From a virus, in the IMG/VR virus record IMGVR_UViG_3300025687_000432, positions 1 to 20,357 of that record: a DNA stretch of 20,357 nt; one strand, written 5' to 3'. Shown in pieces: positions 2,725 through 20,172 of the stretch (position 1 is its first letter; each line of letters opens with the position of its first letter). The notes under the pieces were generated by a model. The model ran no database searches, was not told the DNA's origin, and was given only the letters and a program-made list of their open reading frames with translations. Position numbers and translations under genes: made by a program.

Positions 2725-3393
2725 ATGATCTACATTACCGGAAATGTTAGTGATGTCAAGGGGGTGTACCTCTCATTTGATGCCTGCATCGCAGGCTTTA
2801 AGTATAGGATGGATAAGATAGATGATATCTATATCATCCCTGATTGGAGATGGAATCCTGTCGATGGGTACCAAAATAGACATGAGTATAGAAATGATGT
2901 AGACATGTTCTTCTCTGACATTAAGAACAGAACTACTATCTTTCCTTTCGCTTCACGGTTTATCGCGAACGACGATCTGTTTAGAATAACCAGGGATTCG
3001 ATTAAGGATTTCAAATTACAATATTATGGTGTGTTGTGGTATCTAAACTATGTGAGGTTTGCTTGGGAGAGGCCTCACCTTCTTCGCTATTGGAAAAAGA
3101 TTAGGAAAGAGTATACTGACTTTGATGTTGGAATGTTACTGCTTTCTTTTATGGGGGTAGATGGAAAGCTAAGTAATTTCAGTCCATCATGTGGACACAC
3201 AGCATTCTCTCACCTTGAAACAACAAGGTTCGGTGCTGTCTTCGATATCATTAAGGAGTGTGGGTATTATAACAATCAGCTATTAACCAATAAACAAATA
3301 AGAGTTGAGCATTATCCAGAGTTCTCTGGTATGCGTGGAAATCTTGAGTTTAGTAATGTGTATAACACTATCAAAGAAAAGATTGGGAGATAA
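2725..3393 (+). CDS. Hypothetical protein at the head of the amidoligase operon, 222 aa
   Basis: ATG 2725 lies nine bases after the previous stop, with ATAGG as a weak ribosome binding site. The product is soluble and rich in aromatic residues. Notable segments are IYIIPDWRWNPVDGY (about residues 35-49), a Trp/Tyr-rich helix YYGVLWYLNYVRFAWERP (about 100-117), and a Cys/His segment SPSCGHTAFSH. I do not recognise the fold. It ends 3 bases before the class I amidotransferase gene, so it is probably co-transcribed and may belong to the same pathway. That is inference from position only. Confidence 0.78.
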   Translation: MIYITGNVSDVKGVYLSFDACIAGFKYRMDKIDDIYIIPDWRWNPVDGYQNRHEYRNDVDMFFSDIKNRTTIFPFASRFIANDDLFRITRDSIKDFKLQYYGVLWYLNYVRFAWERPHLLRYWKKIRKEYTDFDVGMLLLSFMGVDGKLSNFSPSCGHTAFSHLETTRFGAVFDIIKECGYYNNQLLTNKQIRVEHYPEFSGMRGNLEFSNVYNTIKEKIGR

Positions 3394-3396
3394 GAA

Positions 3397-4035
3397 ATGA
3401 AAGAAACTAATGTGATGGTACTCGACAGTATCAACTCTGACTATGCAGCATACTTCAAAGAGAATGGGTATAGTTTGATTGATCCAATGGATAATACTCA
3501 ACCTATCCCTGATTTGATTGTATTTACAGGTGGTACTGACATCTCTCCTTCTCTTTATAAGGAGAAGAAGATACGTCAAACTCAAAAGTCTGATAACAAA
3601 AGAGATGAGTTTGAGATTCAGATGTATAAGCGAGGTGTGTTTCTGAATATCCCAATGATTGGGATTTGTCGTGGAGCACAGTTCCTTAATGTAATGAATG
3701 GAGGGACATTGATCCAGCACATCACTGGTCATACATCTGGTCATGATGTCACCACTTACAGTGGTAAGAAGTTTAAGGTGACTTCATCTCACCATCAGAT
3801 GATGATCCCTCTTGGTAAATATGAGGTGCTTGCTACATCTAGCACTCTACTCAGTGAGAAATACTTAACTGGTGAGGGAGAAGCACATCCACAATTTGAG
3901 TATGAGTGTGTGTATTATCCCAAGACTAATAGCTTGTGTGTTCAGTGGCATCCTGAATGGATGTCTGATGAAACTGATGGGTATACCTACCCACTTGAAC
4001 TGTTGAAGAAACTAATCGAAGAGACGGAGGTTTAA
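3397..4035 (+). CDS. Class I glutamine amidotransferase-like / gamma-glutamyl hydrolase (peptidase C26)
   Basis: This 212-residue protein has the full class I glutaminase triad: nucleophile Cys91 in GICRGAQ, and His185 and Glu187 in QWHPEW. The oxyanion strand is FTGGTDISPS (43-52), and TSSHHQ (129-134) is typical of the peptidase C26 / PuuD branch. That branch cleaves gamma-glutamyl amides, while other members deliver ammonia to a synthetase partner. It has no fused synthetase domain. Sited directly upstream of an ATP-grasp ligase, it may trim gamma-glutamyl intermediates or feed ammonia. The length is slightly short for the family (about 230-250). The family is secure; the substrate is unknown. 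Confidence 0.93.
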   Translation: MKETNVMVLDSINSDYAAYFKENGYSLIDPMDNTQPIPDLIVFTGGTDISPSLYKEKKIRQTQKSDNKRDEFEIQMYKRGVFLNIPMIGICRGAQFLNVMNGGTLIQHITGHTSGHDVTTYSGKKFKVTSSHHQMMIPLGKYEVLATSSTLLSEKYLTGEGEAHPQFEYECVYYPKTNSLCVQWHPEWMSDETDGYTYPLELLKKLIEETEV

Positions 4036-4036
4036 C

Positions 4037-4855
4037 ATGGCTAATTATATTTATCGTATTCGTAAGGGTGTCCCTGGTGTCGGGCGTCGTCTTGCTAAAG
4101 CACTCAACTTGATTGAGTTAACAAGTAAGAAACCCCTGGAAAAAATCCAACTACCAGCTATCGTAATTAACTATGGAAGATCTGTAAATCCTGAATGGAT
4201 GCAGAATGGTATTATAGGATTGAATGCCCCGGATGCAGTTGCTCTTGCTGTTGATAAGATTAAGACATTGAATACTCTTCATGAAATGGGTCATGAATAT
4301 TGTCTTCCTTTTACTACTGAAAAGGAAGTTGCTCTTAAGTGGTTGGAAGAAGATGGCTCAGTGGTAGTACGCAAGACTGTTAAGGGTAAGAAGGGTAATG
4401 GTCTTATCATTGCTACTACTGAGGATGAGGTAGTAGATGCACCCCTCTACACCAGACACTTTAAGAAGACACATGAGTTCCGTGTTCATATCTTTTTGAG
4501 TGAGGTGATCGATTATGTACAGAAGAAGAAGATGTCCAAGGCAAAGCTTGAAGCGATGGGCATTGAACAGGTTAACATGGATGTACGTAACCACATGCGT
4601 GGTTGGGTATTTGCAAGGAAGGATATCATAGACAGTGTCTTCATTAAACAGATTGCAGTAGATGCTGTAGATATGTTGGACCTAGACTTTGCTGCTGTTG
4701 ATGTTCTTGCAAGGGTAGAACATGGTAAGGTTGTAGGTGCTGTAGTGTGTGAAGTTAACTCTGCCCCTGGTATGAGTGATAAGAATACTTTCAATGCTTA
4801 TACAAAAGCAATGAAAGGCTTCATTGATTTTATTGATAACACTCATGGAGACTAA
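4037..4855 (+). CDS. ATP-grasp carboxylate-amine ligase (RimK-like)
   Basis: ATG 4037 follows the previous stop by one base, with GGAGG at 4026-4030. The 272-residue protein shows ATP-grasp landmarks. These are a hinge KIKTLNTLHE (74-83), the nucleotide-binding stretch VVVRKTVKGKKGNG (109-122), HEFRVHIF (146-153), LDFAAVDVL, and the Mg-binding end CEVNSAPGM with Glu239 and Asn241. This order is that of RimK/glutathione-synthetase-type ligases, which form an acylphosphate and join it to an amine. Substrates cannot be read from sequence. It lies between an amidotransferase and an amidoligase, so it probably makes one amide bond of a multi-step product. N-terminal residues 5-45 look like the pre-ATP-grasp domain. 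Confidence 0.9.
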   Translation: MANYIYRIRKGVPGVGRRLAKALNLIELTSKKPLEKIQLPAIVINYGRSVNPEWMQNGIIGLNAPDAVALAVDKIKTLNTLHEMGHEYCLPFTTEKEVALKWLEEDGSVVVRKTVKGKKGNGLIIATTEDEVVDAPLYTRHFKKTHEFRVHIFLSEVIDYVQKKKMSKAKLEAMGIEQVNMDVRNHMRGWVFARKDIIDSVFIKQIAVDAVDMLDLDFAAVDVLARVEHGKVVGAVVCEVNSAPGMSDKNTFNAYTKAMKGFIDFIDNTHGD

Positions 4856-4859
4856 CAGA

Positions 4860-5699
4860 ATGAAACTCTTCTCTATTGGTACTGATACTGAGGTTTCTTT
4901 ATACAAGGATGGTATATACAAGTCAGCAATTGGTCGTGTTCCTGGGACCAAGGACGCTCCCTGTCCTACTGAGCATGGTTGGATTCAGCAAGATGGGGTG
5001 AGTGTTGAGTTCAATACCCCTCCTGTATTCTCTCATGTTGAGAATCCAAAGGAGTTGTTTATCAAGTCTGTTAACCTTGCAATGAAGGATGTTCTCAAGG
5101 TTGCTTCTGAACAAGATATGGAAGTTAAGATTGTTCCTCAAGCAATCTTCTTTGATGATGAGCTTGCACACCCTCTTGCAAGGATTGCAGGATGTGACCC
5201 TGACTTCTGTGTGTATGATCTGGAACAGAACCCAGCACCTGACATCTCTGCCACTCCGATGCGTACCTTTGGTGGGCATATTCATGTAGGTTATGAAGAC
5301 TCTGGATCAAACTATGACCAAGGATTCAATATTGTTAGGGGATTGGATTGTACCCTTGGTATGCTATCTCTTCTCTTTGATAAGGAAGGTGAACCACGTC
5401 GTTCTTTGTATGGAAAAGCAGGAGCATTCCGTCCAAAGCCTTATGGTATTGAGTATCGTACCTTGTCTAACTTCTGGATTAAGAGTGATAAGTTTATTGG
5501 ACTTGTGTATGATACGGTAGATTTTATTATGAATAACCTTGATCTCTTTGAAAAAAGTGCTAATGGATTCTTTCTAAATCGGGTTAGGGTGATTAACAAT
5601 CCAACTATTGCATCGGATGATACTGTTCGTAGTATGATTGGACAGGTTCCTAACTACATTAATGTTCTTAAAAAGAATGAGGTGAGTCTCTATGTATAA
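4860..5699 (+). CDS. phiEco32-type COOH-NH2 ligase (amidoligase, glutamine-synthetase fold)
   Basis: ATG 4860 has GGAG at 4847-4850. An earlier in-frame ATG at 4824 lies within the ATP-grasp gene. The 279-residue protein carries the acidic metal-binding strand IGTDTEVSL (6-14), a second acidic strand DGVSVEFNTPP (45-55), the His strand GGHIHVG (138-144) and a C-terminal arginine block with FRPKPYGIEYRTL (190-202). These match the amidoligase group first noted in phage phiEco32 (COOH-NH2 ligase type 2, PF14395 by memory). The fold is that of glutamine synthetase and gamma-glutamylcysteine synthetase, so it should couple ATP to amide formation. The substrate is unknown. The next gene starts 8 bases before its stop. 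Confidence 0.88.
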   Translation: MKLFSIGTDTEVSLYKDGIYKSAIGRVPGTKDAPCPTEHGWIQQDGVSVEFNTPPVFSHVENPKELFIKSVNLAMKDVLKVASEQDMEVKIVPQAIFFDDELAHPLARIAGCDPDFCVYDLEQNPAPDISATPMRTFGGHIHVGYEDSGSNYDQGFNIVRGLDCTLGMLSLLFDKEGEPRRSLYGKAGAFRPKPYGIEYRTLSNFWIKSDKFIGLVYDTVDFIMNNLDLFEKSANGFFLNRVRVINNPTIASDDTVRSMIGQVPNYINVLKKNEVSLYV

Positions 5700-6324
5700 G
5701 AAAACAGCAGATGACTTACGTATTGAGTATTCAGATACAATCGTAAGCTACAGGAAAGTAGCTCATCAGATTGGAGACGTTGAGTTTAAAGGTGGGAAGC
5801 CTTACTTTAAAATGGTTAATCTGGAGAACAGTAAGATTGCAACAGTATCTATAGATGATGAGGATCTTATCCTAAAGTTCCCATCTACTGGGTGGTTTAA
5901 CTTCTCGGATGGATTCTCTTTGTATATTAACAGGCTTGATAAGAGACAGTGGAGGAGAACATTATGTAATTCTAATGTATATATCTCTGAGCACTTCTCT
6001 GAAGAGAGGGCTTATGTAAGGGCTCCAAGCATTACAGATGGTAAGAAGTTAATTCCATATGCACTATACAGTGAAATCTTTAATCCAAAATACTTTCAAT
6101 GGGAGGAGGCAGTAGAATCCCTTCGGTCTGGTGAGAGGGTTGCTGCTGCTATTAATAATAATATCCTTATAGGATATAAGAAGATATTTAGACATCCCAT
6201 CTTGTTCTACAATCAGCATGCTGTTGCTGAAGTAGTCAACAAGTCAGTGAAAATTACTGAACACAATCTTGCTTTGAGAGAATCTTTGGACGACAACGGG
6301 ATTAAATACCATGAAGCTATCTAA
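5692..6324 (+). CDS. Hypothetical protein between two amidoligases, 210 aa
   Basis: The gene starts inside the preceding stop region (8-base overlap), with AATGAGGTGAG as ribosome binding site. The product is a soluble alpha-beta protein. Segments that stand out are PSTGWFNFSDGFSLYINRLDKRQWRR (residues 65-90), PYALYSEIFNPKYFQWEEAVESL and a helical C-terminus. I recognise no catalytic motif or family. Being flanked and overlapped on both sides by ligases (14-base overlap with the next) strongly suggests a role in the same system: a partner, a carrier or a substrate protein. Confidence 0.82.
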   Translation: MYKKTADDLRIEYSDTIVSYRKVAHQIGDVEFKGGKPYFKMVNLENSKIATVSIDDEDLILKFPSTGWFNFSDGFSLYINRLDKRQWRRTLCNSNVYISEHFSEERAYVRAPSITDGKKLIPYALYSEIFNPKYFQWEEAVESLRSGERVAAAINNNILIGYKKIFRHPILFYNQHAVAEVVNKSVKITEHNLALRESLDDNGIKYHEAI

Positions 6325-7432
6325 CTTCTATCCTATTAAGGATAACTCTTTTGTTTATAATACCTGCCCTGAGTTTCCTACTAAGGATAAGGTTGGTATT
6401 GAGGTTGAACTTGAAGGACTTCCCTACTCTAAGTCCATAGCTATTGGTGACTACTGGGAACTGAGTAAAGACCCTAGTCTTAGAGACTATGGAGTTGAAT
6501 TCAGAACTCGTGATGGACTGTGGGGTGAAGATCTTCTTCTAGCCTTGAAGGGTCTTGATAAGTATATCGAGAATTATGAGAAGAAGTTTAATAAAATCTC
6601 TGTATCAGAGAGATGTTCTGTTCATATTCACCTTGGTATGGAGAACTGTGAGACATGGACTCTCTACAACATGACAGTTCTCTTCATTATCTTTGAGAAG
6701 ATGTTGTTTAACTTTGGGGGTAAGGATAGACGTGACCTTGCTTACTGTATCCCATTAACAGAACTTAATTCTCTTCATAGTATTCTAGATGCTATGAAGT
6801 GGGGAAGGAATGGAGAAGACTACCCTGCTAATGCTTGTCATACTTCAAAGTATTCTTTCTTTAATACACTCTCTCTTACTAACCATGGTACTATTGAGGT
6901 TCGGAATCTCTCTGGTACTAAGGATCCACTAATCATCTTCAAGTGGATTAAGATCCTACTGGCTATCAAGGCTTATGCCATTTATCTTGGCAAAGATTTT
7001 AACATGGAACTTCTTCCTTCTCGTGTAAGTCAGGAGGGTTTGGTTCCCTTTGTTGATAAGATCTTTGGTACATTTGCTGAAGATCTGATGTATCCTGGTT
7101 GGAGTAAGGATCTCTTAACTTGTATCCGTGAACTTCAACCCTTCCTTCTTAATAAAGTTGAGATCCTTCATAATTTTGAAAGAGTCAAAACCCGTCCACT
7201 TGGACTCTTTAGGTATAAGAAGTTACATCAAAAGGTTGAACCTGTATTTCAAGTTCAAAACCTCTTCGATGTTAATCCTGTTCAGTATGAGGAACCACTT
7301 AATGAGGTCTTTGTACATGCTCATCCAGTCCCACAAGGACAAGAAAACTTTATAAATATTGATGAACTTCTTAACCATGAAGGTGATGAAGATGATGATG
7401 AACCTGAATATGATCCTGACGATCACGGCTAA
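6311..7432 (+). CDS. Second amidoligase (Amidoligase_2-type, glutamine-synthetase fold)
   Basis: This 373-residue protein has the amidoligase pattern: acidic strand GIEVELEG (29-36), DYGVEFRT (59-66), His strand SVHIHLG (103-109) and the arginine strand GTIEVRNLSGT (193-203). The order matches the PF12224-like family, a different branch from the ligase at 4860. The catalytic domain ends near residue 240. A helical region follows, then a low-complexity acidic tail (EGDEDDDEPEYDPDDHG) that is not needed for the fold and may be a docking or modified tail. No clear ribosome binding site precedes it, so translation is probably coupled to the previous gene. The substrate is unknown. Confidence 0.88.
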   Translation: MKLSNFYPIKDNSFVYNTCPEFPTKDKVGIEVELEGLPYSKSIAIGDYWELSKDPSLRDYGVEFRTRDGLWGEDLLLALKGLDKYIENYEKKFNKISVSERCSVHIHLGMENCETWTLYNMTVLFIIFEKMLFNFGGKDRRDLAYCIPLTELNSLHSILDAMKWGRNGEDYPANACHTSKYSFFNTLSLTNHGTIEVRNLSGTKDPLIIFKWIKILLAIKAYAIYLGKDFNMELLPSRVSQEGLVPFVDKIFGTFAEDLMYPGWSKDLLTCIRELQPFLLNKVEILHNFERVKTRPLGLFRYKKLHQKVEPVFQVQNLFDVNPVQYEEPLNEVFVHAHPVPQGQENFINIDELLNHEGDEDDDEPEYDPDDHG

Positions 7433-7443
7433 GGAGATATGAC

Positions 7444-8742
7444 ATGTGTGGATTGATTGGTATTATCAATAACGAAAGCAACTTTCAACAAAAGAAGAAG
7501 CTTGGCAATCTCTTCTCCCAACTGATGTGGGTAGGAGCATTGAGAGGTTTTGATTCTACTGGTGTTGCTCTTTGTAAAACTGAAGATAAGAAGTTGGTAG
7601 ATGTTGCGTCATATAAAAGAGCCTTGTGTTCTACTGACTTCCTTGCTACTAAAGGGTATGAGAGGTTGTTAAGGGATTTTGGTGAGTATAAGTATATCAT
7701 TGGTCATAACAGAGCAGCTACTAAAGGTTCTGTTATTGACATGTACTCTCATCCCTTTGAGTTTAATAACCTGATTGGTGTACATAATGGTACATTGTAC
7801 AATCATAACTCATTGAACAAGGAAACCTTTACAAGTGACAGTGAAGCTCTTTATCATGCAATGAATGAAGGTGATGCTGTTAAAGTCTTGGAGAAAGCTG
7901 ATGGTGCATATGCTCTTATCTGGTATGATAAGAATGACTCTAAGCTCTATCTTGCTCGTAATAAAGAGCGCCCTTTATACTTAACTACTACAAAGGACAA
8001 GAGTGTTTCTGTATTAGCATCTGAATACCAGATGGCAGAATGGATTCTTAATCGTAATGGATATCCTGTAGAAAAGAGTTGGGAGATTCCTGTCGGAAAG
8101 ATCATGTACATTAATGATGATGATCCCGATACACTGAATGAAGTGGCTACCTTCAAGCCATACGAGAAACCCAATTTCCCTATGACCAACTATACTGGTA
8201 ACAGTTATGGAGGATATACTAGTAAGCGTACCAAGTTTCGTCACCGCTACAAGACAAATCATAAAGTCTATGTTCAAGTAACAAACGTAGAGATCATTGG
8301 AAGGTCTAAGAGGGTTGAAGGTTATGTCTTAGATGATTTGTTTATCCCAGTGTGTAGGGTTTGGCTTACTGAATCTCATCCTGCTTATGAGACAATAGCT
8401 CCTGGTATGGTGTTTACTTCAATCTGCAACAGTTCTCTATACACTGAAGGTTCTCTAAAGTTAGAGATCTATGTTAACTCTTCAGACACTACTGTAATCC
8501 CTGACTATTATACTGATGATGAGCCAGTTCTTACTGATGAGGAGCATGAGGTTTATGAAGATGTAGTACTAGGTCCAAATAACAAGCTACTCTCTAAAGA
8601 AGAGTGGGAGAAGGCTAGTCCTTGTTGTTGTGTATGTTCTTCTCCTATCCCATGGGATGATGCTGAAGAAGTTATTTATCTACATAATGATGAACCTATG
8701 TGTCAAGGTTGTGTAACCTCTCACCACGATTGGATGATGTAA
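7444..8742 (+). CDS. Class II (Ntn-hydrolase) glutamine amidotransferase with zinc-knuckle tail
   Basis: AAGGAG precedes ATG 7444. The second residue is the Ntn nucleophile Cys2 (MCGLIGI). Other class II glutaminase landmarks are LRGFDSTG (33-40), GHNRAATKG (87-95), HNGT (114-117) and Asp132 in SDSEAL. The glutaminase domain ends near residue 240. Unlike asparagine synthetase, GlmS or PurF, no known synthetase domain follows. Instead there is a basic linker, a beta-rich segment that could be an OB-like barrel (about 265-345), an acidic linker, and a Cys-rich tail with CCCVC (394-398) and CQGC (420-423). It therefore probably supplies ammonia or a glutamyl group to a separate ligase in the operon. 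Confidence 0.92.
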   Translation: MCGLIGIINNESNFQQKKKLGNLFSQLMWVGALRGFDSTGVALCKTEDKKLVDVASYKRALCSTDFLATKGYERLLRDFGEYKYIIGHNRAATKGSVIDMYSHPFEFNNLIGVHNGTLYNHNSLNKETFTSDSEALYHAMNEGDAVKVLEKADGAYALIWYDKNDSKLYLARNKERPLYLTTTKDKSVSVLASEYQMAEWILNRNGYPVEKSWEIPVGKIMYINDDDPDTLNEVATFKPYEKPNFPMTNYTGNSYGGYTSKRTKFRHRYKTNHKVYVQVTNVEIIGRSKRVEGYVLDDLFIPVCRVWLTESHPAYETIAPGMVFTSICNSSLYTEGSLKLEIYVNSSDTTVIPDYYTDDEPVLTDEEHEVYEDVVLGPNNKLLSKEEWEKASPCCCVCSSPIPWDDAEEVIYLHNDEPMCQGCVTSHHDWMM

Positions 8743-8767
8743 AATGCTACACATTAAAGAAGATAAC

Positions 8768-9817
8768 ATGTCTGCACTTTCTGAAATCACACAAACTCAC
8801 AACCACCGTTATGCTTTTGTTAGAGAGATGAAGCCAGGAGAGTATACACAGATCCATACTCATGTTAAGTGTAAGGATTTCCTTAGTGATGTACTAGTAT
8901 CAAACTATCTTGATAATTATAATCACTTCCCTATCTATGGATTTGACTACCATCCAGAAATTTACTCTGAATCTGAAAAGTTTCTGGTTGATACTGAACG
9001 AACTCTGATTTCTGTTCGTCCAACCAAAGATTTTTGGATTAATAATATTGAAAAGCTTAATGAATTTGAAAGAGAAATTGGATTTAGTGAATCTAAGATT
9101 CTGTTGGAACATAAATTTCGTTCCAAGATGCCTTGGTATGTGGTTGAAGGTGATAAAAGATGGATGATGAATTACATTTTCCTTGGTATCTATACTCTCT
9201 TCTTAAGACTACTGAACTACAAGAGCGTTAATCTTTTAAACCTATCTGGTATCGCAGAAGGTACTGATAGTAGTATTACAAAGCGTCTTGATCCTAATGC
9301 TATCCTTTGGATGCTGAAGAACTGGGATACAGAATTTAAATCTGTACCGCCAACTGGTAATAGAAACCTTTCATGTGTCAGGGGTGTGTATGATGGTATT
9401 AGACCATACATTCATGAGTATGGTGTGCTTAGTACACTTGAACATGCAAATCAAATCTCCTTTGGTTTTAATAAAGAAGACTATAGTTCTGAGATAACTC
9501 AGATCCTTGTTGAGAAATACTATAAGCCTAAGTGGGGGATGGTTAAGAAGTTTAGGGTTCCTCCTTTTATTGTGGATAGAATCAAACCAATCTATTCATG
9601 GAATAAGTATGAGTTCAAATATAACTCTATAATCTTTACTAAGGGTACAGACAGTCTACATCTTCCAGTAAAATCTGAAATAGATAAGGACTACTTTGTA
9701 TTTTCTGTAGTTGTAATCTCAAAGGATAATGTTCAAGATCTAGAAAAGATAATGGCAGAGTATTCATTATATGCTGATGATTCAGATGAGATTACTACTT
9801 ACTTATATAAAGGATAA
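8768..9817 (+). CDS. Hypothetical protein closing the amidoligase operon, 349 aa
   Basis: ATG 8744 is in frame one base after the previous stop but has no ribosome binding site. ATG 8768 (MSALSEITQ) is preceded by AAAGAAGAT and is preferred, though the choice is uncertain. The product is a large soluble protein with His-rich MKPGEYTQIHTHVKCKDF near residue 22. It also has a hydrophobic helix around NYIFLGIYTLFLRLLNY, the segment LSGIAEGTDSSITKRLDP, and an alpha-beta C-terminus with KDYFVFSVVVISKDN. I recognise no family. Its place immediately after the class II amidotransferase suggests that it acts in the same pathway. Confidence 0.8.
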   Translation: MSALSEITQTHNHRYAFVREMKPGEYTQIHTHVKCKDFLSDVLVSNYLDNYNHFPIYGFDYHPEIYSESEKFLVDTERTLISVRPTKDFWINNIEKLNEFEREIGFSESKILLEHKFRSKMPWYVVEGDKRWMMNYIFLGIYTLFLRLLNYKSVNLLNLSGIAEGTDSSITKRLDPNAILWMLKNWDTEFKSVPPTGNRNLSCVRGVYDGIRPYIHEYGVLSTLEHANQISFGFNKEDYSSEITQILVEKYYKPKWGMVKKFRVPPFIVDRIKPIYSWNKYEFKYNSIIFTKGTDSLHLPVKSEIDKDYFVFSVVVISKDNVQDLEKIMAEYSLYADDSDEITTYLYKG

Positions 9818-9824
9818 TATAATA

Positions 9825-9974
9825 ATGACAACAGAAGATGATATCCTAGATCAGGAAGATGAAGAGTATCTACATTGGATTGATGTTGAACCTGAAAGAG
9901 AACTTGACTTTAACTATGAACCTGTGAGAGAATATGAACCTGACTTTGAAGATTATATCGACTGGGATGAATGA
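9825..9974 (+). CDS. Very acidic small protein, 49 aa
   Basis: AAAGG at 9809-9813 precedes ATG 9825 by a longish gap. The 49-residue product has only two basic residues apart from one His and is about 45% Asp plus Glu. It shows a loose repeat of the type (E/Y)-E-P-(V/D)-R/F-E and ends DFEDYIDWDE. No fold is predicted by eye. It may be a DNA mimic, an unstructured linker protein, or a substrate of the upstream ligases. The composition resembles the 43-residue protein at 1983-2114. Its stop is overlapped by the next gene's start. Confidence 0.62.
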   Translation: MTTEDDILDQEDEEYLHWIDVEPERELDFNYEPVREYEPDFEDYIDWDE

Positions 9975-10326
9975 AGCGGAGAATTCAGAACATGAACAAT
10001 ATAGAGTCGGCGCTGTTGTCTTTAGGAAAAGAACTGTCATCTCGTGTGCATCTAATTCTAGAGTTAAGACACATCCTCTCCAGTCTAGGTTGGCATATAG
10101 AAAAGGCATCTACTCAAACGGGAGACTACACGCAGAAGTCGCAGCAATTATTAGAGCTAGGGGTAGAGGAGATGCAATCTTTGTGTGCAGGATTGGAAAG
10201 TCTGGAGACGCAAGACTTGCTAAACCGTGTCCAGCTTGTGAAGAAGCTATTAGAGAAGCTGGAATTAAGCACGTATGGTACACTGATAGCGAAGGAGGGA
10301 TAAGTTATTATGCTGTGGATAGCTGA
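9967..10326 (+). CDS. Cytidine/deoxycytidylate deaminase-family protein
   Basis: ATG 9967 overlaps the preceding stop; an earlier in-frame ATG at 9934 has no ribosome binding site. The 119-residue product has both zinc-site motifs of the deaminase superfamily. These are HAE (His55, Glu57), with Glu57 as proton donor, and PCPAC (Cys88, Cys91) as the other zinc ligands. The core strand QYRVGAVVFRKRTVISCASN lies at 11-30. It is shorter than T4-type dCMP deaminase (about 190). With ThyX, MazG and ribonucleotide reductase downstream, making dUMP from dCMP for thymidylate synthesis is the most economical role. Free cytidine, RNA or DNA cytosine are alternatives. Confidence 0.85.
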   Translation: MNEAENSEHEQYRVGAVVFRKRTVISCASNSRVKTHPLQSRLAYRKGIYSNGRLHAEVAAIIRARGRGDAIFVCRIGKSGDARLAKPCPACEEAIREAGIKHVWYTDSEGGISYYAVDS

Positions 10327-10753
10327 CATAGAGGCCAATGGATTAGATGATGCTACACAAATTCATTGTATTGTACTTAAACAATACAAAGGAGATAAGT
10401 GGGTTAAACTTTACGGTGATTCCTTAAAAGATATCTCTAAGTATAAAGATGATATTTTTGTATTTCATAATGGGATTACGTATGATATCCCATTAATAAA
10501 TCGTCTTCTTGATGTTACAATTGGAGAATGTATTGATACATTGATCCTTAGTAAGATGTGTTTTCCACTAAGACCAACACACAATCTAAATGACTGGGGT
10601 GAATACTTTGGTATAGAAAAACCAAAGCATGAAGACTGGTCTACATTCTCACCAGAAATGCTTCATAGATGTGAAGAAGATGTAAAGATAACTGAACTGT
10701 TGTATGAACATCTCATGAAAGAGACTGGACCTTTCTATGAAACTAGAGGTTAA
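10310..10753 (+). CDS. DNA polymerase 3'-5' proofreading exonuclease (separate DEDD subunit, T7-like)
   Basis: This 147-residue protein corresponds to the N-terminal exonuclease domain of T7 gp5. Exo I is DIEANG (Asp6, Glu8), Exo II is FHNGITYDIP (Asp59) followed by CIDTLILSK, and Exo III is RCEEDVKIT (Asp124). The Exo III position usually occupied by Tyr (YxxxD) is Arg120 here. The polymerase domain is not fused but is encoded by the next gene, which starts 17 bases before this stop in the +1 frame. The two proteins presumably assemble into one proofreading polymerase. Start ATG 10310 overlaps the deaminase gene, with GGAGGG a few bases upstream. Confidence 0.93.
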   Translation: MLWIADIEANGLDDATQIHCIVLKQYKGDKWVKLYGDSLKDISKYKDDIFVFHNGITYDIPLINRLLDVTIGECIDTLILSKMCFPLRPTHNLNDWGEYFGIEKPKHEDWSTFSPEMLHRCEEDVKITELLYEHLMKETGPFYETRG

Positions 10754-12149
10754 CTGGAACTTACCAATAAAGATAGAACATGAGATACATAAAATTCAAT
10801 ATCAACAGGAGAAAGATGGATGGCAATTCGATGTAGATAAAGCTGTTGAGTTCTGTACATATCTTGAAACTAAACGTAAAGATATATACGACAGTATACG
10901 TCCTCACTTATGTAAGGTAGTTCAGGTAAAGTATAAACTACCTATATCTAAACCATTTAAAAAGACAGGAGGGTATACTAAATCAGTTATTGATTGGTAT
11001 GGGAATGTTGATGAGGATTACATAGGTGGTCCTTTCTCAAGAGTAGAATTTGTAGAACCTAATCTTGATTCAGATCAACAGTTAAAGGATCAGCTACTTC
11101 GTATAGGGTGGAAGCCTACCCAGTGGAACTTCAAGAAGGAAGGTAAGAGAGTGGTGTATGGTCCTGATAACAAACCTATCAAGACCTCACCTAAGATTAC
11201 TGAGGATTCTTTTGATTCTTTGTCTGAAGGTATTGGACCATCTATCAAAACCTTCCTGATATATGGCCATAGACTCTCACAGATTACAGGATTTCTAAGA
11301 AACGTCAGACCTGACGGTACTATCCAAGCCAAGGCTAATCCCTGTGGTACACCTACCGCTAGATACACACATTCTGTGGTGGTTAACGTACCTAAAGCTG
11401 ATCCTAAAGTTGTCTTTGGTAAGGAAGTACGGTCACTGTTTATTGCTAGACCAGGTAGAGTTCTGGTTGGCGGTGATGCTTCAGGTCTAGAAGCTAGGGT
11501 TGGTTCTCATTGGACCTATAAACTAGATGGAGGTCAGTATGCTAATGATGTATTGAATGGAGACTGGCATAGTAAGAATGTAAAGCAAGTGTATTACGTT
11601 GAAGAAACTAAAGACTTAGATACACATTCACCAACCTTTGGATCATACAGATCTAGAGGAAAGAACGGATCATATGCTCTGATGTATGGAGCACAACCAC
11701 CTAAGCTTGCTGAGACTCTTGGTATACCAGTATCAAAAGCTAAAAAGATCTGGGATTTATTCTGGGAAATTAATATTGGATTAGGTAAATTAAAAGCAAG
11801 ACTTGAATGGTACTACAGAAATCATGGTTATATTGTTGCTATTGATGGGAGGAAGATATATGTAAGAAAAGAAAGTGACTTGATTAATTATTTGTTTCAA
11901 AGTACTGGAGCAATCATTATGAAGGTAGCTAAGATCATTCTAGTTTCTTGGATTAAAAGATATAACCTAGATGCGATTATAGTTGGTGACTTTCATGATG
12001 AGTTCCAGTTGGATTGTCATCCAGATGATGCACATAAAGTAGGAGCATTGATTGTGAGAGCTATTCGTAATGCTGGTGAGTTCTTTGAGTTAGCAGTACC
12101 ACTAGATGGTGAGTATAAGATCGGAAAGAACTGGGCAGAAACCCATTGA
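10737..12149 (+). CDS. Family A DNA polymerase, polymerase domain (T7 gp5-like)
   Basis: This 470-residue protein has the three polymerase motifs. Motif A is GGDASGLEARVGSHW with catalytic Asp247. Motif B is the O-helix R305-x3-K309-x3-Y313-x3-YG. Motif C is VGDFHDEFQL with His420, Asp421 and Glu422. The template-binding segment CGTPTARYTH (203-212) is also present. Tyr313 is at the place of T7 Tyr526, which by known work on the family predicts ready acceptance of dideoxynucleotides. The first ~170 residues correspond to the thumb and tip region. With the separate exonuclease the total is 617 residues, compared with 704 in T7 gp5. Its TGA is part of the -35 box of the next promoter. Confidence 0.96.
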   Translation: MKLEVNWNLPIKIEHEIHKIQYQQEKDGWQFDVDKAVEFCTYLETKRKDIYDSIRPHLCKVVQVKYKLPISKPFKKTGGYTKSVIDWYGNVDEDYIGGPFSRVEFVEPNLDSDQQLKDQLLRIGWKPTQWNFKKEGKRVVYGPDNKPIKTSPKITEDSFDSLSEGIGPSIKTFLIYGHRLSQITGFLRNVRPDGTIQAKANPCGTPTARYTHSVVVNVPKADPKVVFGKEVRSLFIARPGRVLVGGDASGLEARVGSHWTYKLDGGQYANDVLNGDWHSKNVKQVYYVEETKDLDTHSPTFGSYRSRGKNGSYALMYGAQPPKLAETLGIPVSKAKKIWDLFWEINIGLGKLKARLEWYYRNHGYIVAIDGRKIYVRKESDLINYLFQSTGAIIMKVAKIILVSWIKRYNLDAIIVGDFHDEFQLDCHPDDAHKVGALIVRAIRNAGEFFELAVPLDGEYKIGKNWAETH

Positions 12150-12174
12150 CATACCACTTCAAGTGTGGTATAAT
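12146..12174 (+). promoter_or_regulatory. Perfect sigma70 promoter before the SSB-like gene
   Basis: TTGACA (12146-12151), a 17-base spacer and TATAAT (12169-12174) match the consensus at all 12 positions. TGG directly before the -10 adds an extended -10 (TGn). The start of transcription should be near 12181, about 22 bases before ATG 12204. The spacer holds the palindrome CACTTCAAGTG (12155-12165), flanked loosely by TACC and GGTA, which could be an operator. The -35 overlaps the polymerase stop codon. Confidence 0.9.
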
Positions 12175-12203
12175 TCAGACTTTAATATAAAAGGAAAACA
12201 TAA

Positions 12204-12818
12204 ATGAAACTAAAAACTCAAGCAAAAAGTAATAAGAAGTTCCAAGCTCCTGAAGTAAAGGCCGGATCATATTTTGGTCGTGTAGTTCAGATCATTGACC
12301 TTGGTGTACAGAAACAAACTGATTGGCAGACTGGTGCTGAGAAGGATCCTCAGCGTAAGCTGATGATCTCTGTTGAAGTACCCAAGCTAACCTACGAGGA
12401 TAAGGATCATAATAAAATTCCTCGTTGGTTCTATAAGGAGATCACATTCTCTAGTAATGAGAAGAGTAGCATGTACTCCATCTTCTCTGACATCCTTGGG
12501 TATGATCAGAATGATTGGAACAACAACGATATTGATCTATTTGATGCACTATCACTACCTGTAATGGTACAGATTGGACATACCAATACAGGTAATCCAA
12601 AGGTACTCAACATTGTTTCCGCTCCTGAAGGGGTAGAGGTACCTGAACCTAAGTTTGGTAGTTCAGGATTTGATTATGACTTTCCAAACTTCGGTGTATT
12701 CAAATCCCTCCAACCATGGATGCAAGAAAAACTGAAGAGTGCCCTTAACTATAAGGGCAGTAAGCTTGAAGCTCTCATCCTATCGGATGAACTTCAGGAT
12801 GATGACATCCCATTCTAA
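12204..12818 (+). CDS. Single-stranded DNA-binding-like protein
   Basis: AAAAGGAAAA precedes ATG 12204. The 204-residue product starts with a basic tail, then has strands GSYFGRVVQIIDLGVQ (21-36) and KLMISVEVPKL, followed by PRWFYKEITFS. These look like an OB-like barrel of the kind in phage SSB or recombination accessory proteins. The C-terminus is acidic and ends DDDIPF, the hallmark tip that SSBs use to recruit partner proteins. Placement between polymerase and primase-helicase, its own strong promoter and a downstream terminator fit a protein needed in large amounts. I assign SSB by tail, fold impression and context rather than by a secure family match. Confidence 0.8.
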   Translation: MKLKTQAKSNKKFQAPEVKAGSYFGRVVQIIDLGVQKQTDWQTGAEKDPQRKLMISVEVPKLTYEDKDHNKIPRWFYKEITFSSNEKSSMYSIFSDILGYDQNDWNNNDIDLFDALSLPVMVQIGHTNTGNPKVLNIVSAPEGVEVPEPKFGSSGFDYDFPNFGVFKSLQPWMQEKLKSALNYKGSKLEALILSDELQDDDIPF

Positions 12819-12826
12819 CACCTGCC

Positions 12827-12845
12827 AGGCCAAGGATGGCCTCTT
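12827..12845 (+). terminator. Probable intrinsic terminator after the SSB-like gene
   Basis: Stem AGGCCA (12827-12832) pairs with TGGCCT (12837-12842) around the tetraloop AGGA, followed by CTTT. The loop is the same as in the terminator at 678-699. The T-tract is short, so termination is probably partial, which would let some transcription continue into the helicase gene. Confidence 0.65.
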
Positions 12846-12859
12846 TAATAGAGTAAATA

Positions 12860-14551
12860 ATGAGGCAATTAGATAAGACACATATACCATGTCCTTCATG
12901 TAGAGATAAAGGTCATGATGAAGCTGGTGATAACTTAGCTTTATTTGAAAATAAAGATGGTACTATCACTGGCTATTGTTTTAAAGAAGATAAGTACTTT
13001 AAAAACCCATTAGAAAATGATTATGAAGAAATGGAAATACAAGAACAACATAAATATATTGATTTAGAATTTATTAATAAGCTACCAACAAAAGGATTAT
13101 CTGACAGAGGTATATCAAAAGAAGCGACTGAGAAGTTTGGAGTAAAGGTTCTTATTGATGAGACTACTGGTGAACCTACTACTCACTATTATCCATACTA
13201 CATTGATGGTAAGGTATCTGGGTACAAAGAAAGAAAGGTTGCAAATAAAGAGTTCCATGTAGTAGGAAACATTAGAGGGTGTGAACTCTTTGGCCAACAC
13301 TTAGTTAATGGCAAGAACTTTCTTATCATTGTAGAAGGAGAGTGTGATGCACTAGCCACATATGATTTACTTAAACGCTCTAATAAAAACTATAATGTAG
13401 TTTCTCTTATCAATGGTGCTAATAAAAGATCAATACAAAACAACCTAGAGTTTGTTGAATCATTTGAATCTGTTGTATTAGCATTTGATAATGATGAACC
13501 TGGCAACAAAGCAGCTAGACAGGTAGCTGATCTCCTATCCCCTGGTAAAGCTAAGATAGCTTCCCTCCCTTGTAAAGATCCCAATGAATGCTTAAAGGAA
13601 AACAAGACTCATGAGTTCCTACGATCAATCTTCAACGCGAAAGAACATAGACCCGATGGTATTATCAGGCTTTCTCAAGCATACGATGAATTATTTCGGG
13701 ATGACAGCATTGAATCTATCCCTTATCCATGGGAAGGGCTTAACCGTAAGCTGTATGGAATCAGGCCGAGAGAGATTGTTACTATCACATCAGGATCTGG
13801 GATGGGAAAGTCAGCAATCGTTAGAGAAATAGAGCATTGGTTATTTAAAAAGACAAAAGATAATATAGGAGTCTTAGCTCTTGAAGAATCTATTGGGAGA
13901 ACTCAGTGGGGTATACTCTCGATTCAAGCAAATCTTCCCTTACATATTAGGGAAGAGAGGAAAGAAGTCCCTAGAGATAAGATCAGATCTTGGTGGGATG
14001 AAACTATTGGTACAGGAAGATTCATATCGTATGATCATTTTGGATCAACAAATGAAGACAACCTCATCAATCAAGTACGATATCTTATTAGGGGTATGGA
14101 CTGTAAGTGGATCATTCTCGACCATCTCTCAATCGTTGTATCATCAATGGACGAAGGTGGAGATGAAAGAAAGACTATAGACTCCATCATGACTAAGCTT
14201 CGTACTCTTGTTGAAGAGACTGGAGCTGGTCTGATTCTTGTATCACATCTACGTAGACCATCAGGAGATAAAGGACATGAGATGGGCGCTACTGTTACTC
14301 TATCTCAACTTCGTGGATCTCATTCTATCGCTCAGTTATCTGATGCTGTTATTGGTTTAGAAAGAAATCAACAAGCTAAAGATGAGAGGGAACAGAACTT
14401 AACTAAGGTCACTGTATTAAAGAACAGATACTCAGGGTATACAGGGTTAGCTACTAGTTTATTCTACAATAGAGAAACAGGTAGACTATATGAAGTAGAA
14501 GATCCTGAAGGATGGTTCCTCGGTGAAGTTGAAGAGAGGTTACCGCAATGA
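12860..14551 (+). CDS. Primase-helicase (T7 gp4-like)
   Basis: This 563-residue protein is nearly the length of T7 gp4 (566). It has an N-terminal primase zinc module (Cys11, Cys14, Cys40) and a TOPRIM domain with IIVEGECDAL (156-165, Glu159) and LAFDNDEPG (207-215). A RecA-like hexameric helicase follows, with Walker A SGSGMGKS (311-318), EES (342-344), Walker B KWIILDHLSIVVS (416-428), and later motifs SHLRRP and LRGSHSI. It would unwind DNA and make primers for the split polymerase. The zinc module has CPSC but only one Cys in the second half (GYCFKED), where T7 gp4 has two. The start is weakly marked (GAG at 12851). Its stop overlaps the next start by ATGA. Confidence 0.96.
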   Translation: MRQLDKTHIPCPSCRDKGHDEAGDNLALFENKDGTITGYCFKEDKYFKNPLENDYEEMEIQEQHKYIDLEFINKLPTKGLSDRGISKEATEKFGVKVLIDETTGEPTTHYYPYYIDGKVSGYKERKVANKEFHVVGNIRGCELFGQHLVNGKNFLIIVEGECDALATYDLLKRSNKNYNVVSLINGANKRSIQNNLEFVESFESVVLAFDNDEPGNKAARQVADLLSPGKAKIASLPCKDPNECLKENKTHEFLRSIFNAKEHRPDGIIRLSQAYDELFRDDSIESIPYPWEGLNRKLYGIRPREIVTITSGSGMGKSAIVREIEHWLFKKTKDNIGVLALEESIGRTQWGILSIQANLPLHIREERKEVPRDKIRSWWDETIGTGRFISYDHFGSTNEDNLINQVRYLIRGMDCKWIILDHLSIVVSSMDEGGDERKTIDSIMTKLRTLVEETGAGLILVSHLRRPSGDKGHEMGATVTLSQLRGSHSIAQLSDAVIGLERNQQAKDEREQNLTKVTVLKNRYSGYTGLATSLFYNRETGRLYEVEDPEGWFLGEVEERLPQ

Positions 14552-16477: not shown

Positions 16478-16687
16478 ATGGAAACATTAATTTGTACAGT
16501 TTGTAGTGAACTTGTAAATGAAGGAGAAATTCATGAAGACCATGTTGGAAGGATTGTATGCGAGAATTGCGGGGATATTAGAGTATTTACAATCGATGAG
16601 ATTTCAGACATTGTTAACGACTATATCGAACGTAGGAGAAAGAATGAAAACTATATGGAACTCATTCAAGCGTTGAAGGAAGAGTGA
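16478..16687 (+). CDS. Small zinc-ribbon protein, 69 aa
   Basis: TAGGAGAAGAG precedes ATG 16478. Residues 6-31 form a four-Cys zinc ribbon (CTVC at 6-9, CENC at 28-31) with an acidic/His-rich loop between. The C-terminal half is a predicted amphipathic helix (IVNDYIERRRKNENYMELIQALKEE). The layout suggests a zinc-anchored adaptor or transcription-type ribbon. No specific family is recognised. Its TGA overlaps the next gene's ATG. Confidence 0.75.
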   Translation: METLICTVCSELVNEGEIHEDHVGRIVCENCGDIRVFTIDEISDIVNDYIERRRKNENYMELIQALKEE

Positions 16688-17478
16688 TGAGTATACTTGT
16701 AGTGGGTGATCCACATACTGAACCTAATCAAAGTTTAGAACGGTTTGATATACTAGGAGAGTTTATAGTTAAGCACAAGCCTGAAACCATCATCATGATG
16801 GGAGACTTCCTAACCTTAGACTCTCTCTCAGACTATGATAGAGGTAAACCAGGAAAGTTAGAAGGACGTAGACTATCTGCTGAACTTCATGCAGGATACG
16901 ATGCTATTCTAAGAACAGAAGGACCAATGAGAGAATACAATCTCTCTCAGAAAAAGAAAAAAGGTAAGCAATACCATCCAACTAAAGTTTATTTAGAAGG
17001 TAATCACGAGTACAGGTGGAAGAGATACCTTGATGTTCATCCAGAGATGAAGGATACTTTGTACATCTATGAACAGATTGGTTTGTATGATTATGATCCA
17101 TGGAATATAATTAAATTCAGAGAATATTATGGGATGACAGACATTCAATTCACCCATATACCGATGAATTCAATCAACCGTCCAATCTCTGGTGTAAGGG
17201 TAGTGCAAACAGCCCTGGCTATGCACGATGATAGTGTAGTTTTTGGGCATACTCACAACCTGGAGTATGCATCCAATACCAGACTGTGGGTTGATAAAGG
17301 TAGGCGTATTTTTGCATTAAATTGTGGGTGGTTTGGAGAGGATATTCCAGAGTATGCAGTTGGGTCTTATGGATCAAGTAACTGGTGGTCTGGTCTTGTA
17401 GTTCTAGAAAGGTCTGGTCTTAACATGTATGATATTAATACATACTCAATGGAAAAATTACGTAGAGGTAATTTCTAA
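16687..17478 (+). CDS. Calcineurin-like metallophosphoesterase
   Basis: ATG 16687 (preceded by GAAGGAAGAG) is preferred over GTG 16684. The 263-residue product has the ordered metal-site motifs: VVGDPH (Asp8, His10), MMGDFLTL (Asp40), LEGNHEYR (Asn106, His107), AMHDD and VFGHTHN (187-191). This is the classical dimetal phosphoesterase fold, and in place of the usual GDxxD there is GDFLTLD. In phages such enzymes are proposed to act on DNA ends, nucleotides or RNA, and the substrate cannot be told here. It stands just before MazG in a run of overlapping genes. Confidence 0.93.
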   Translation: MSILVVGDPHTEPNQSLERFDILGEFIVKHKPETIIMMGDFLTLDSLSDYDRGKPGKLEGRRLSAELHAGYDAILRTEGPMREYNLSQKKKKGKQYHPTKVYLEGNHEYRWKRYLDVHPEMKDTLYIYEQIGLYDYDPWNIIKFREYYGMTDIQFTHIPMNSINRPISGVRVVQTALAMHDDSVVFGHTHNLEYASNTRLWVDKGRRIFALNCGWFGEDIPEYAVGSYGSSNWWSGLVVLERSGLNMYDINTYSMEKLRRGNF

Positions 17479-17804
17479 TGACAATTGATGAGTATCAACA
17501 GTGGACAATCAACACAGCTATCTACCCTGGAGCAGGTAAAGGAGGATTAGATGAGCTTCTATACCTTGCTCTTGGTTTAAATGGTGAAGCTGGAGAAGTA
17601 GCAGAGAAAGTAAAGAAGTTATTCAGAGACGGTACGTTTGATACCGAGTTATTTATTAAGGAACTTGGAGATGTGATTTATTATTGGGCTAGGTTATGTG
17701 AAGCTGTGAATGTTGATGCATCAGAAGTTATTTTAGAGAACCAATGGAAGTTGAATTCAAGACTAGAACGTGGTAAAATCCAAGGCTCTGGAGATGAACG
17801 ATAA
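17478..17804 (+). CDS. MazG-like NTP pyrophosphohydrolase
   Basis: TAATG joins it to the previous gene (1-base overlap). The 108-residue product has the all-alpha MazG metal motif: EAGEVAEKVKKLF (37-49; Glu37, Glu40) and KELGDVIYYWARL (61-73; Glu62, Asp65), that is ExxE...ExxD. It should convert NTPs or dNTPs to monophosphates and pyrophosphate. In phages MazG-type enzymes are thought to shape the nucleotide pool or alarmone levels, and here it lies with ThyX and ribonucleotide reductase. Single-domain length is as expected for phage forms. Confidence 0.93.
   Translation: MTIDEYQQWTINTAIYPGAGKGGLDELLYLALGLNGEAGEVAEKVKKLFRDGTFDTELFIKELGDVIYYWARLCEAVNVDASEVILENQWKLNSRLERGKIQGSGDER
17751..17779 (+). 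promoter_or_regulatory. Possible weaker sigma70 promoter
   Basis: TTGAAT (17751-17756), a 17-base spacer and TAAAAT (17774-17779) match the consensus at 9 of 12 positions, with TGG before the -10 as in the two perfect promoters. It lies inside the mazG-like gene and points at the genes from 17794. The match could be chance in A+T-rich DNA. Confidence 0.35.
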
Positions 17805-18172: not shown

Positions 18173-18383
18173 AGGTGGTAAGGGTAAGGTATCTCATGTA
18201 ACTGTCTACGAGATCTTCTATAATAATAACGAAGTAGAATATCTTGAAGCAACATCTATTGGTTCTCCTGATGATGGGGTTCTTGATGCAATCCTCTTCT
18301 TTAATGAAGAAAACCTAGTTAAGATTGTACCAACAAGTGGTATACATCATATCAATATCTCTTATAGAGTAGTGAAGCAATGA
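18150..18383 (+). CDS. Hypothetical protein, 77 aa
   Basis: ATG 18150 is preceded by AAAAAGGATAACAAC, a usable ribosome binding site. The product reads as alternating beta strands (VSHVTVYEIFYNNNEVEYLEA, then NLVKIVPTSGIHHINISYRVV) with one helix. I recognise no family. Its stop shares ATGA with the ThyX start, so expression is probably coupled to ThyX. Confidence 0.72.
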   Translation: MAIITSIEGGKGKVSHVTVYEIFYNNNEVEYLEATSIGSPDDGVLDAILFFNEENLVKIVPTSGIHHINISYRVVKQ

Positions 18384-19213
18384 CAATAGAAGTAAAGTTA
18401 ATTGAATTTAGTAGAAATACAGATGGAGAGGAGCTTGCTACACTACAGTTGAGGTATCCTAGATTCATTCATTCTGAGTTCATGACTCATAGAATGTTCT
18501 CAAGGAATGCATCCTCATCAAGAGCTAAACCATTCTATCGTTGGGTTGATGAGATTAAAAATGACTTAGCATTTCCAGAAGAGATATTTGAGAATATTCC
18601 AGGAATGCAGGGAGGAAAAAAGCTTCTTGATAAAGAGTTTGATCTAGTAAAGAAATATATACAGTATCTAGCCTCTGATACAATAGAAGATTTAGAAAAT
18701 ATTAATGATTTGTTTTATCCACACAAGCAGTTCATCAATAGATATCTAGAACCATTTACACATATTGATGTAATTGTAACTTCAACTGAATGGAAAAACT
18801 TCTTTAAACTAAGAGATCATCCTGATGCTGATCCTACAATACATGCTCTAGCATCTAAGATGAAAGAGGTTTTGTCTAATGCTAAATATAAATTATTAAA
18901 GAGAGGAGAATGGCATCTGCCATACGTATTACAAAATGAAAGAGAGCAATTTACCAGAGAAGTGTTATGCAATATTAGTGCTGCTAGGTGTGCTCGTGTT
19001 TCTTATTCTAACCATGATGGGACTAACCCTGTTATAGCTGGAGATTTACAACTAGCTAAAACGTTAAGAGAAGCAGGGCATATGTCTCCATTTGAGCATC
19101 AAGCTACCCCACTCCTGGATAGAGATCAAGACGGATTCACACATAAAGATAAGTACAGAGATCTTTGGAGTGGTAACTTTAGAGGGTGGGTACAATACAG
19201 AAATGTTATTTGA
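18380..19213 (+). CDS. thyX: Flavin-dependent thymidylate synthase ThyX
   Basis: This 277-residue protein carries the ThyX signature as THRMFSRNASSSR (36-48), matching RHRxxSxNxxSxR with the first Arg replaced by Thr. Further on are REVLCNISAARCARVSY and the SPFEHQATP segment (dUMP/FAD site). It methylates dUMP to dTMP using methylene-tetrahydrofolate, FAD and NADPH, without consuming the folate ring as ThyA does. The middle (100-190) is longer than in minimal ThyX proteins. It forms a dTTP route with the deaminase (9967) and the ribonucleotide reductase (20165). Confidence 0.95.
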   Translation: MTIEVKLIEFSRNTDGEELATLQLRYPRFIHSEFMTHRMFSRNASSSRAKPFYRWVDEIKNDLAFPEEIFENIPGMQGGKKLLDKEFDLVKKYIQYLASDTIEDLENINDLFYPHKQFINRYLEPFTHIDVIVTSTEWKNFFKLRDHPDADPTIHALASKMKEVLSNAKYKLLKRGEWHLPYVLQNEREQFTREVLCNISAARCARVSYSNHDGTNPVIAGDLQLAKTLREAGHMSPFEHQATPLLDRDQDGFTHKDKYRDLWSGNFRGWVQYRNVI

Positions 19214-20007: not shown

Positions 20008-20013
20008 GTGTCT

Positions 20014-20172
20014 ATGGAAAGTCCTTGTGTAAGGGTATGTAAACTAAACAAAGAGGATATCTGTATAGGTTGTAAAAGAACTAGAGAAGAGATAGGACAG
20101 TGGATGTCCTATTCTTCTTTACAAAGAGAAATAATAATAAAGAAGTTAAAAGAGAGGATAGTCAATGAGTGA
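20014..20172 (+). CDS. DUF1289-family Cys-rich protein, 52 aa
   Basis: ATG 20014 begins MESPCVRVCKL, followed by CIGCKRTREEIGQWMSYSS, the signature of DUF1289 proteins, with Cys5, Cys9, Cys17 and Cys20. The family is often called Fe-S or metal-binding by its Cys spacing; its activity is not established. The C-terminal helix is basic. A different-frame ATG at 20004 is not its start. It overlaps the ribonucleotide reductase start by 8 bases. Confidence 0.83.
   Translation: MESPCVRVCKLNKEDICIGCKRTREEIGQWMSYSSLQREIIIKKLKERIVNE

Follow-up and report, generated by a model that had tools for sequence, protein, structure and literature searches.

A predicted amide-bond-forming operon of phages: its conserved partner proteins and candidate products

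What does a phage make with a run of eight genes, five of which encode predicted enzymes of amide-bond chemistry? This question is raised by positions 2725-9817 of the IMG/VR virus record IMGVR_UViG_3300025687_000432, which was analysed over its whole length of 20,357 bases and is referred to here as the window. The window is probably a fragment of a phage genome, and at the DNA level nothing close to it was found in the phage collection except a tRNA gene. An original prediction, made from the sequence and its open reading frames (ORFs), described the locus as an operon with three independent ligase candidates and two unrelated glutaminases, and regarded it as the best candidate in the window for an undescribed pathway. 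The cluster is in fact a copy of the phiEco32/LUZ24-type cluster, which about 310 records of cultured phages share (LUZ24/PaP3, phiEco32/SU10, PA11, CW02, crAss-like phages and others), and for which Iyer et al. (2009; cited in PMC10580990) had predicted cell-wall modification or a metabolite. What is new here is the position of a protein, Y, between two of the ligases, the membership of another protein, X, in a phage family that we call T, and a pattern in the occurrence of two hydrolases, C26 and GGCT; the original prediction had not recognised that X and Y belong to the conserved gene set. Our preferred reading, to which we give a probability of roughly 40%, is that the operon encodes an assembly line, specific to phages, in which glutamate-derived amide bonds are formed during the middle, or replication, phase of infection with the help of dedicated partner proteins.

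The enzymes of the cluster

The eight genes all lie on the + strand, with ORF boundaries unchanged from the original prediction, and the spacing between consecutive genes is 3, 1, 4, -8, -14, 11 and 1 bases (range -14 to +11). ORFs and Pfam and PHROG matches bear out the tight spacing and the three ligase candidates, and PF14395, PF12224, a RimK-type ATP-grasp, C26 and a class II glutaminase were all matched in searches with hidden Markov models (HMMs). The catalytic residues of all five enzymes are intact, as had been claimed, and on alignments of 127-154 distinct relatives the same positions are nearly or fully invariant.

The ATP-grasp ligase (4037..4855) matches PF08443 RimK (E=1.9e-5) and the RimK-like PHROG (E=1.6e-53). 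Its nearest solved structures are the ribosomal protein S6-L-glutamate ligases (RimK, E=5e-11), although it belongs to a separate phage sequence group, and its nucleotide-binding K74, catalytic R149 and metal-site D222, E239 and N241 are conserved. The phiEco32-type COOH-NH2 ligase (4860..5699; PF14395, E=5e-10; PHROG, E=2.8e-58) is a predicted member of the glutamine synthetase (GS)/GCS superfamily in which the acidic, His and Arg motifs D9, E11, H140, H142, E198 and R200 are conserved among relatives; its start is taken as the ATG at 4860, and a TTG at 4824 is likewise open. The second GS-type ligase, Amidoligase_2 (6311..7432; PF12224, E=3.6e-8; PHROG 7469), has E31, E33, H105, H107, E196 and R198 invariant across 152 relatives, and is longer in the crAss-like members. 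In the class II N-terminal nucleophile (Ntn) glutaminase (7444..8742; PF13522 GATase_6, E=1.9e-17) C2, the nucleophile, R34, N115, G116 and D132 are kept and C2 is invariant in 154 relatives. Its PDB matches cover just the first ~190 residues and its C-terminal part has no Pfam match, so that by Pfam and PDB matches the chain has the glutaminase domain and no synthase domain of known type. The C-terminus ends in CxxC...CxxC, with C395, C398, C420 and C423 conserved, and this predicted motif is probably zinc-binding.

The remaining enzyme, the C26 protein at 3397..4035 (PF07722, E=6e-25), had been called a class I glutaminase. Its Cys-His-Glu triad C91/H185/E187 is invariant in 127 relatives, and the solved structures nearest to it are Lin1909, 7d4r and PuuD (6vtv); 7d4r is deposited as a 'probable glutamine amidotransferase', which we take to be the Pseudomonas gamma-glutamylpolyamine hydrolase SpuA. 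By sequence, therefore, C26 is closest to PuuD-type gamma-glutamyl hydrolases and not to a glutaminase subunit, and its predicted activity is that of such a hydrolase. Of the supposed pair of glutaminases, then, only the class II member is likely to be one. In other phages a GGCT protein is found in addition to or in place of C26. A tally of 68 whole records (20 named phages and 48 viral records, the window being extra and having C26) showed that all 68 carry C26, GGCT or both, and never neither; L037, one of the numbered loci, was tallied as C26 from a partial copy at its contig end. The association gave p=7e-5 in a one-sided Fisher test that ignores kinship, and on a tree of the 68 ligases the C26/GGCT labels change 17 times, the GGCT-only state requiring at least 4 changes. 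In loci of +/-10 kb neither protein was seen in 3 of 123, which may reflect truncation or distance. The presence of one or the other in every whole record, together with the likeness of C26 to PuuD, points to a transient gamma-glutamyl bond.

Distribution, gene order and partner proteins

Protein searches covered 50,697 phage records, and each of the four core enzymes was searched for separately. Because each turned up in about 310-340 records, and the organisms and their counts almost coincided, the clustering of these genes is beyond chance. By host name these records are of Pseudomonas (~120), Escherichia (~92), Vibrio (22), Aeromonas (9-11) and others. In the annotated neighbourhoods of 22 phages the cluster was found in LUZ24, phiEco32, SU10, Rembedalsseter, PA11, CW02 and CVT22, and also in LAh_9, Privateer, Slicky01 and Rhizobium and crAss-like phages, and IMG/VR added 159 loci. 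In 145 distinct loci the core genes are all on one strand, and this conservation supports well the view of a multi-enzyme amide-bond operon with a multi-step product. No COOH ligase is recognisable in the cluster of StenR_269 (L018); its 'L-glutamine synthetase' was considered as a PuuA-type replacement but rejected on two grounds: it is without a Pfam match, and it groups with an uncharacterised protein encoded nearby. The ligase family seems to be specific to phages, since a scan of one genome per species for 84,980 prokaryote species gave just 18 matches, all in metagenome-assembled genomes whose viral origin was not checked contig by contig. When viral contigs were scanned with single sequences of the COOH ligase, of X and of Z, the last gene of the cluster, no relatives appeared, and alignments were required.

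The window shares with the phiEco32/LUZ24-type cluster the four core enzymes and Y, on one strand and next to replication genes, which in the window are the DNA polymerase parts and primase-helicase downstream at 10310-14551. It differs in that C26 is present without GGCT in the part seen, the ATP-grasp gene is ahead of the COOH ligase gene, and both X and Z are present. The Zobellviridae (PA11, CW02, CVT22, T5S1) likewise have C26, the glutaminase, the COOH ligase, Y, Amidoligase_2 and the ATP-grasp, with T upstream, but their order is T-C26-GATase-ligase-Y-amidoligase-ATP-grasp and their proteins are ~15-40% identical to those of the window.

Y (5692..6324; PHROG 11055) has no Pfam family and is found in 124 of the 145 distinct loci; it lies between the COOH ligase and Amidoligase_2 in 112 of the 123 distinct loci that have all four enzymes, and the protein at this position in LUZ24 and phiEco32 is homologous to it (HHalign 97.5%). 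Its structure model is confident (pLDDT 92.6), but the Foldseek matches, to the SH3-like barrels of HEX-1, EF-P, eIF5A and Tudor, are weak (E>=0.007), with high probability for single barrels only; Y is thus predicted to be of the SH3-like barrel type. Since its conserved residues are glycine or basic (G67, R81, R85 and R/K88, with a basic motif around R81-R88) and the conserved positions form no catalytic pattern, Y most probably serves as an adaptor without catalytic activity of its own. In the IMG/VR contig L026 (7022-8803) Y is fused to an N-terminal part of ~370 residues whose nature was not recognised.

X (222 amino acids, 2725..3393) matches no Pfam family and has no tblastn relative in cultured phages. 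An iterated HMM search placed it (E=4.9e-20) in T, a family without assigned function whose members lie mostly upstream of the enzymes in 121 loci and which is present in 83 of the 145 distinct loci. Identity within T is mostly 10-25%, but a single Cys and a single Arg do not vary, and a GH motif is frequent; in the window X these are Cys21, Arg111 and His158 of the GH motif. The model of the T member in L184 (pLDDT 90, pTM 0.89) places its Cys48 just ahead of a short helix (residues 50-54). Foldseek found no fold match for this model in the PDB (best E 0.2), and among predicted viral structures it matched proteins of CW02, CVT22, LAh phages, GAP52 and 3H10_20 and, weakly, EP335, which suggests that family T extends towards the relatives of Kuravirus; the match in PaP4 of the LUZ24 group was unconvincing. 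Both T and Y persist across phages despite little retained sequence. The last gene of the cluster, Z (8744..9817), has only two weak tblastn matches in cultured phages and was grouped by HMM into a protein family in 16 loci; the Z alignment, run against viral contigs, added no members. T was detected in none of the other 15 loci, the window alone having both, and elsewhere Z seems to take the place of family T. HHalign gave no support to the idea that Z is a distant T.

Expression and candidate products

In PaP3 ORF32-48 peak at 10-30 min and have been called middle genes (PMC4707531), and since orf48 is by match the COOH ligase of the cluster, the cluster is likely to be expressed in the middle phase. 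Preparations of phage SU10 contain the ATP-grasp, glutaminase and GGCT proteins and also a protein of 23.3 kDa, a mass that agrees more closely with Y than with the gene number reported for it (PMC4281155). These detections are best taken as expression and not as location in the virion because the DNA polymerase was found there too.

For the proposed assembly line we suggest that the COOH-NH2 ligase would activate the gamma-carboxylate of glutamate and join it to an amine on an acceptor, that Amidoligase_2 and the RimK-like ATP-grasp would add more residues, and that the class II glutaminase would provide ammonia for amidation. C26, or GGCT in other phages, would strip the gamma-glutamyl group, which would make this group a temporary protecting or activating group. 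Y would be the adaptor that holds both GS-type ligases to the acceptor and X, like T, a phage partner dedicated to the pathway, which may act as a Cys-dependent enzyme. Gene content and order, intact sites, conservation and near-restriction to phages are observed, whereas these reactions, their order, the acceptor and the roles of X and Y are what we infer from the parts; as for the acceptor, a protein is favoured only slightly over a free metabolite. The scheme is supported by the kinship of the ATP-grasp to the RimK glutamate ligases, which act on a protein, and by the persistence of T and Y. In addition, the loci examined have no regularly present gene that could be recognised as serving precursor synthesis, export or a carrier. 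Several points weigh against it. No reported activity of any of these phage proteins, and no reported product of the cluster, was found in the literature. Neither GS-type ligase matches any solved structure by sequence, and the choice of glutamate as their substrate therefore follows superfamily precedent only. The replacement of C26 by GGCT is not significant once kinship is counted and, because it comprises only 4-5 independent pairs, is suggestive rather than proven. The crAss-like members have no recognisable Y. Finally, the alignments show no Lys, Cys or acidic residue that is invariant in Y and no conservation at the C-terminal end of either Y or T, so that neither resembles a carrier of the LysW or Pup type; a small acceptor or carrier protein with a conserved C-terminal Glu or Gln, as in LysW and Pup, was rejected on the same alignments.

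In the Puu pathway PuuA is a ligase of the glutamine synthetase family and PuuD a C26 hydrolase, and in butirosin synthesis BtrJ and BtrG carry out protective gamma-glutamylation. Like the Puu pathway, the window has a GS-superfamily ligase and a PuuD-type C26 in one operon, and like the butirosin cluster, where BtrG is a GGCT, it combines an ATP-dependent ligase with a gamma-glutamyl-removing enzyme. It is possible, if somewhat less probable than the assembly line, that the cluster yields, by such logic and from a host pool, for example of polyamines, a small gamma-glutamylated amine or oligopeptide as a metabolite or for the neutralisation of a host amine. GS-type ligases usually make gamma-glutamyl amines, C26 is nearest to PuuD and 7d4r, and phage proteins are reported to alter putrescine levels in the case of JBD44 (PMC11898732). 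However, this would leave the wide retention of T and Y unexplained and three ligases exceed the need. The Puu oxidase and dehydrogenase are missing from the window and are not constant parts elsewhere, the window having instead two extra ligases, the class II glutaminase, T/Y and a ligase of PF14395; acyl carrier protein and aminoglycoside genes, as in butirosin synthesis, are absent as well. A simpler use, in which the genes would be an auxiliary set that just manages the nitrogen of glutamine and glutamate while the phage grows and makes nothing special, is quite unlikely: every part is expected to act on glutamate, glutamine or ammonia and reports file such genes as auxiliary metabolic genes, but glutaminase and ligases together would form a futile cycle, and nitrogen management needs neither the strict ligase-Y-ligase order nor the phage proteins T and Y. 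That the host envelope, peptidoglycan or other polymers, is modified to block superinfection, as proposed for phiEco32 (Iyer et al. 2009, cited in PMC10580990), also seems unlikely. The named hosts among the COOH ligase matches listed are all Gram-negative, but expression in PaP3 is middle and not early, and we recognised no secretion or envelope partner that accompanies the cluster regularly.

A modified base was among the products considered originally, and a hypermodified base that shields phage DNA would suit a cluster that lies beside replication genes in most loci. Members of the Gordonclarkvirinae carry the cluster (phiEco32, SU10, Bas86, Bas87 and Bas94), and this group resists restriction systems for a cause left unexplained (PMC11990801); a text search of that paper found no mention of amidoligases, and a link between this resistance and the cluster is possible. 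Yet Rembedalsseter, which carries every core part of the cluster, was sequenced by nanopore as native DNA and no modification motif was found (PMC11780129), DNA of phage tf is cut by the five restriction enzymes RsaI, HpaI, EcoRV, SmaI and HaeIII (PMC3517423), and enzymes that form a base are not among its constant members. These published data on cluster-bearing relatives argue against a modified base, which is disfavoured for the LUZ24 group and which we regard as very improbable overall. A more novel possibility, which we hold to be doubtful, is a form of protein tagging unlike pupylation or ubiquitin: while the phage replicates, the GS ligases joined by the SH3-barrel protein Y, the RimK-like ligase and the Cys-containing T would attach a gamma-glutamyl or amide tag to proteins of the host or the phage and edit it, which might perhaps also explain the resistance of the Gordonclarkvirinae.

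Surroundings of the cluster and significance

The DNA polymerase downstream of the cluster is split into an exonuclease-like part and a separate PolA part, followed by a Toprim/DnaB-type primase-helicase, and a separate exonuclease part is annotated likewise in LUZ24 and phiEco32. A dCMP deaminase-like protein (9934-10326) and a ThyX-like thymidylate synthase (18380-19213) belong to nucleotide metabolism and are not constant parts of the cluster in relatives; a calcineurin-like phosphoesterase (16684-17478), a MazG-like pyrophosphatase (17478-17804) and a DUF1289 protein (20008-20172) are also encoded. The window has tRNA-Arg(TCT) and tRNA-Met(CAT) at 213-371, the former with >90% identity to tRNA genes of Salmonella, Escherichia, Shigella and Proteus phages. 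In other phages the NAD salvage genes for PRPP synthetase and nicotinate/nicotinamide phosphoribosyltransferase adjoin the cluster (L010 16006-18720, Aeromonas LAh_9; L011 1982-4263, Slicky01; L015 2748-6957, Leptolyngbya Lbo-JY46), and in CVT22 and Asterion (L012 and L017) many ORFs of 60-80 amino acids are strewn among the cluster genes, none of which occur in the cluster of the window.

Predicted in 2009, the cluster is carried by about 310 sequenced phage records, including those of phages of laboratory E. coli and P. aeruginosa. Now that T and Y are defined as constant components, the C26/GGCT pattern and the data that speak against a modified base leave gamma-glutamyl or amide conjugates of proteins or small amines as the main candidates for its product, and the findings point to tractable phages in which the product of the cluster may be tested.

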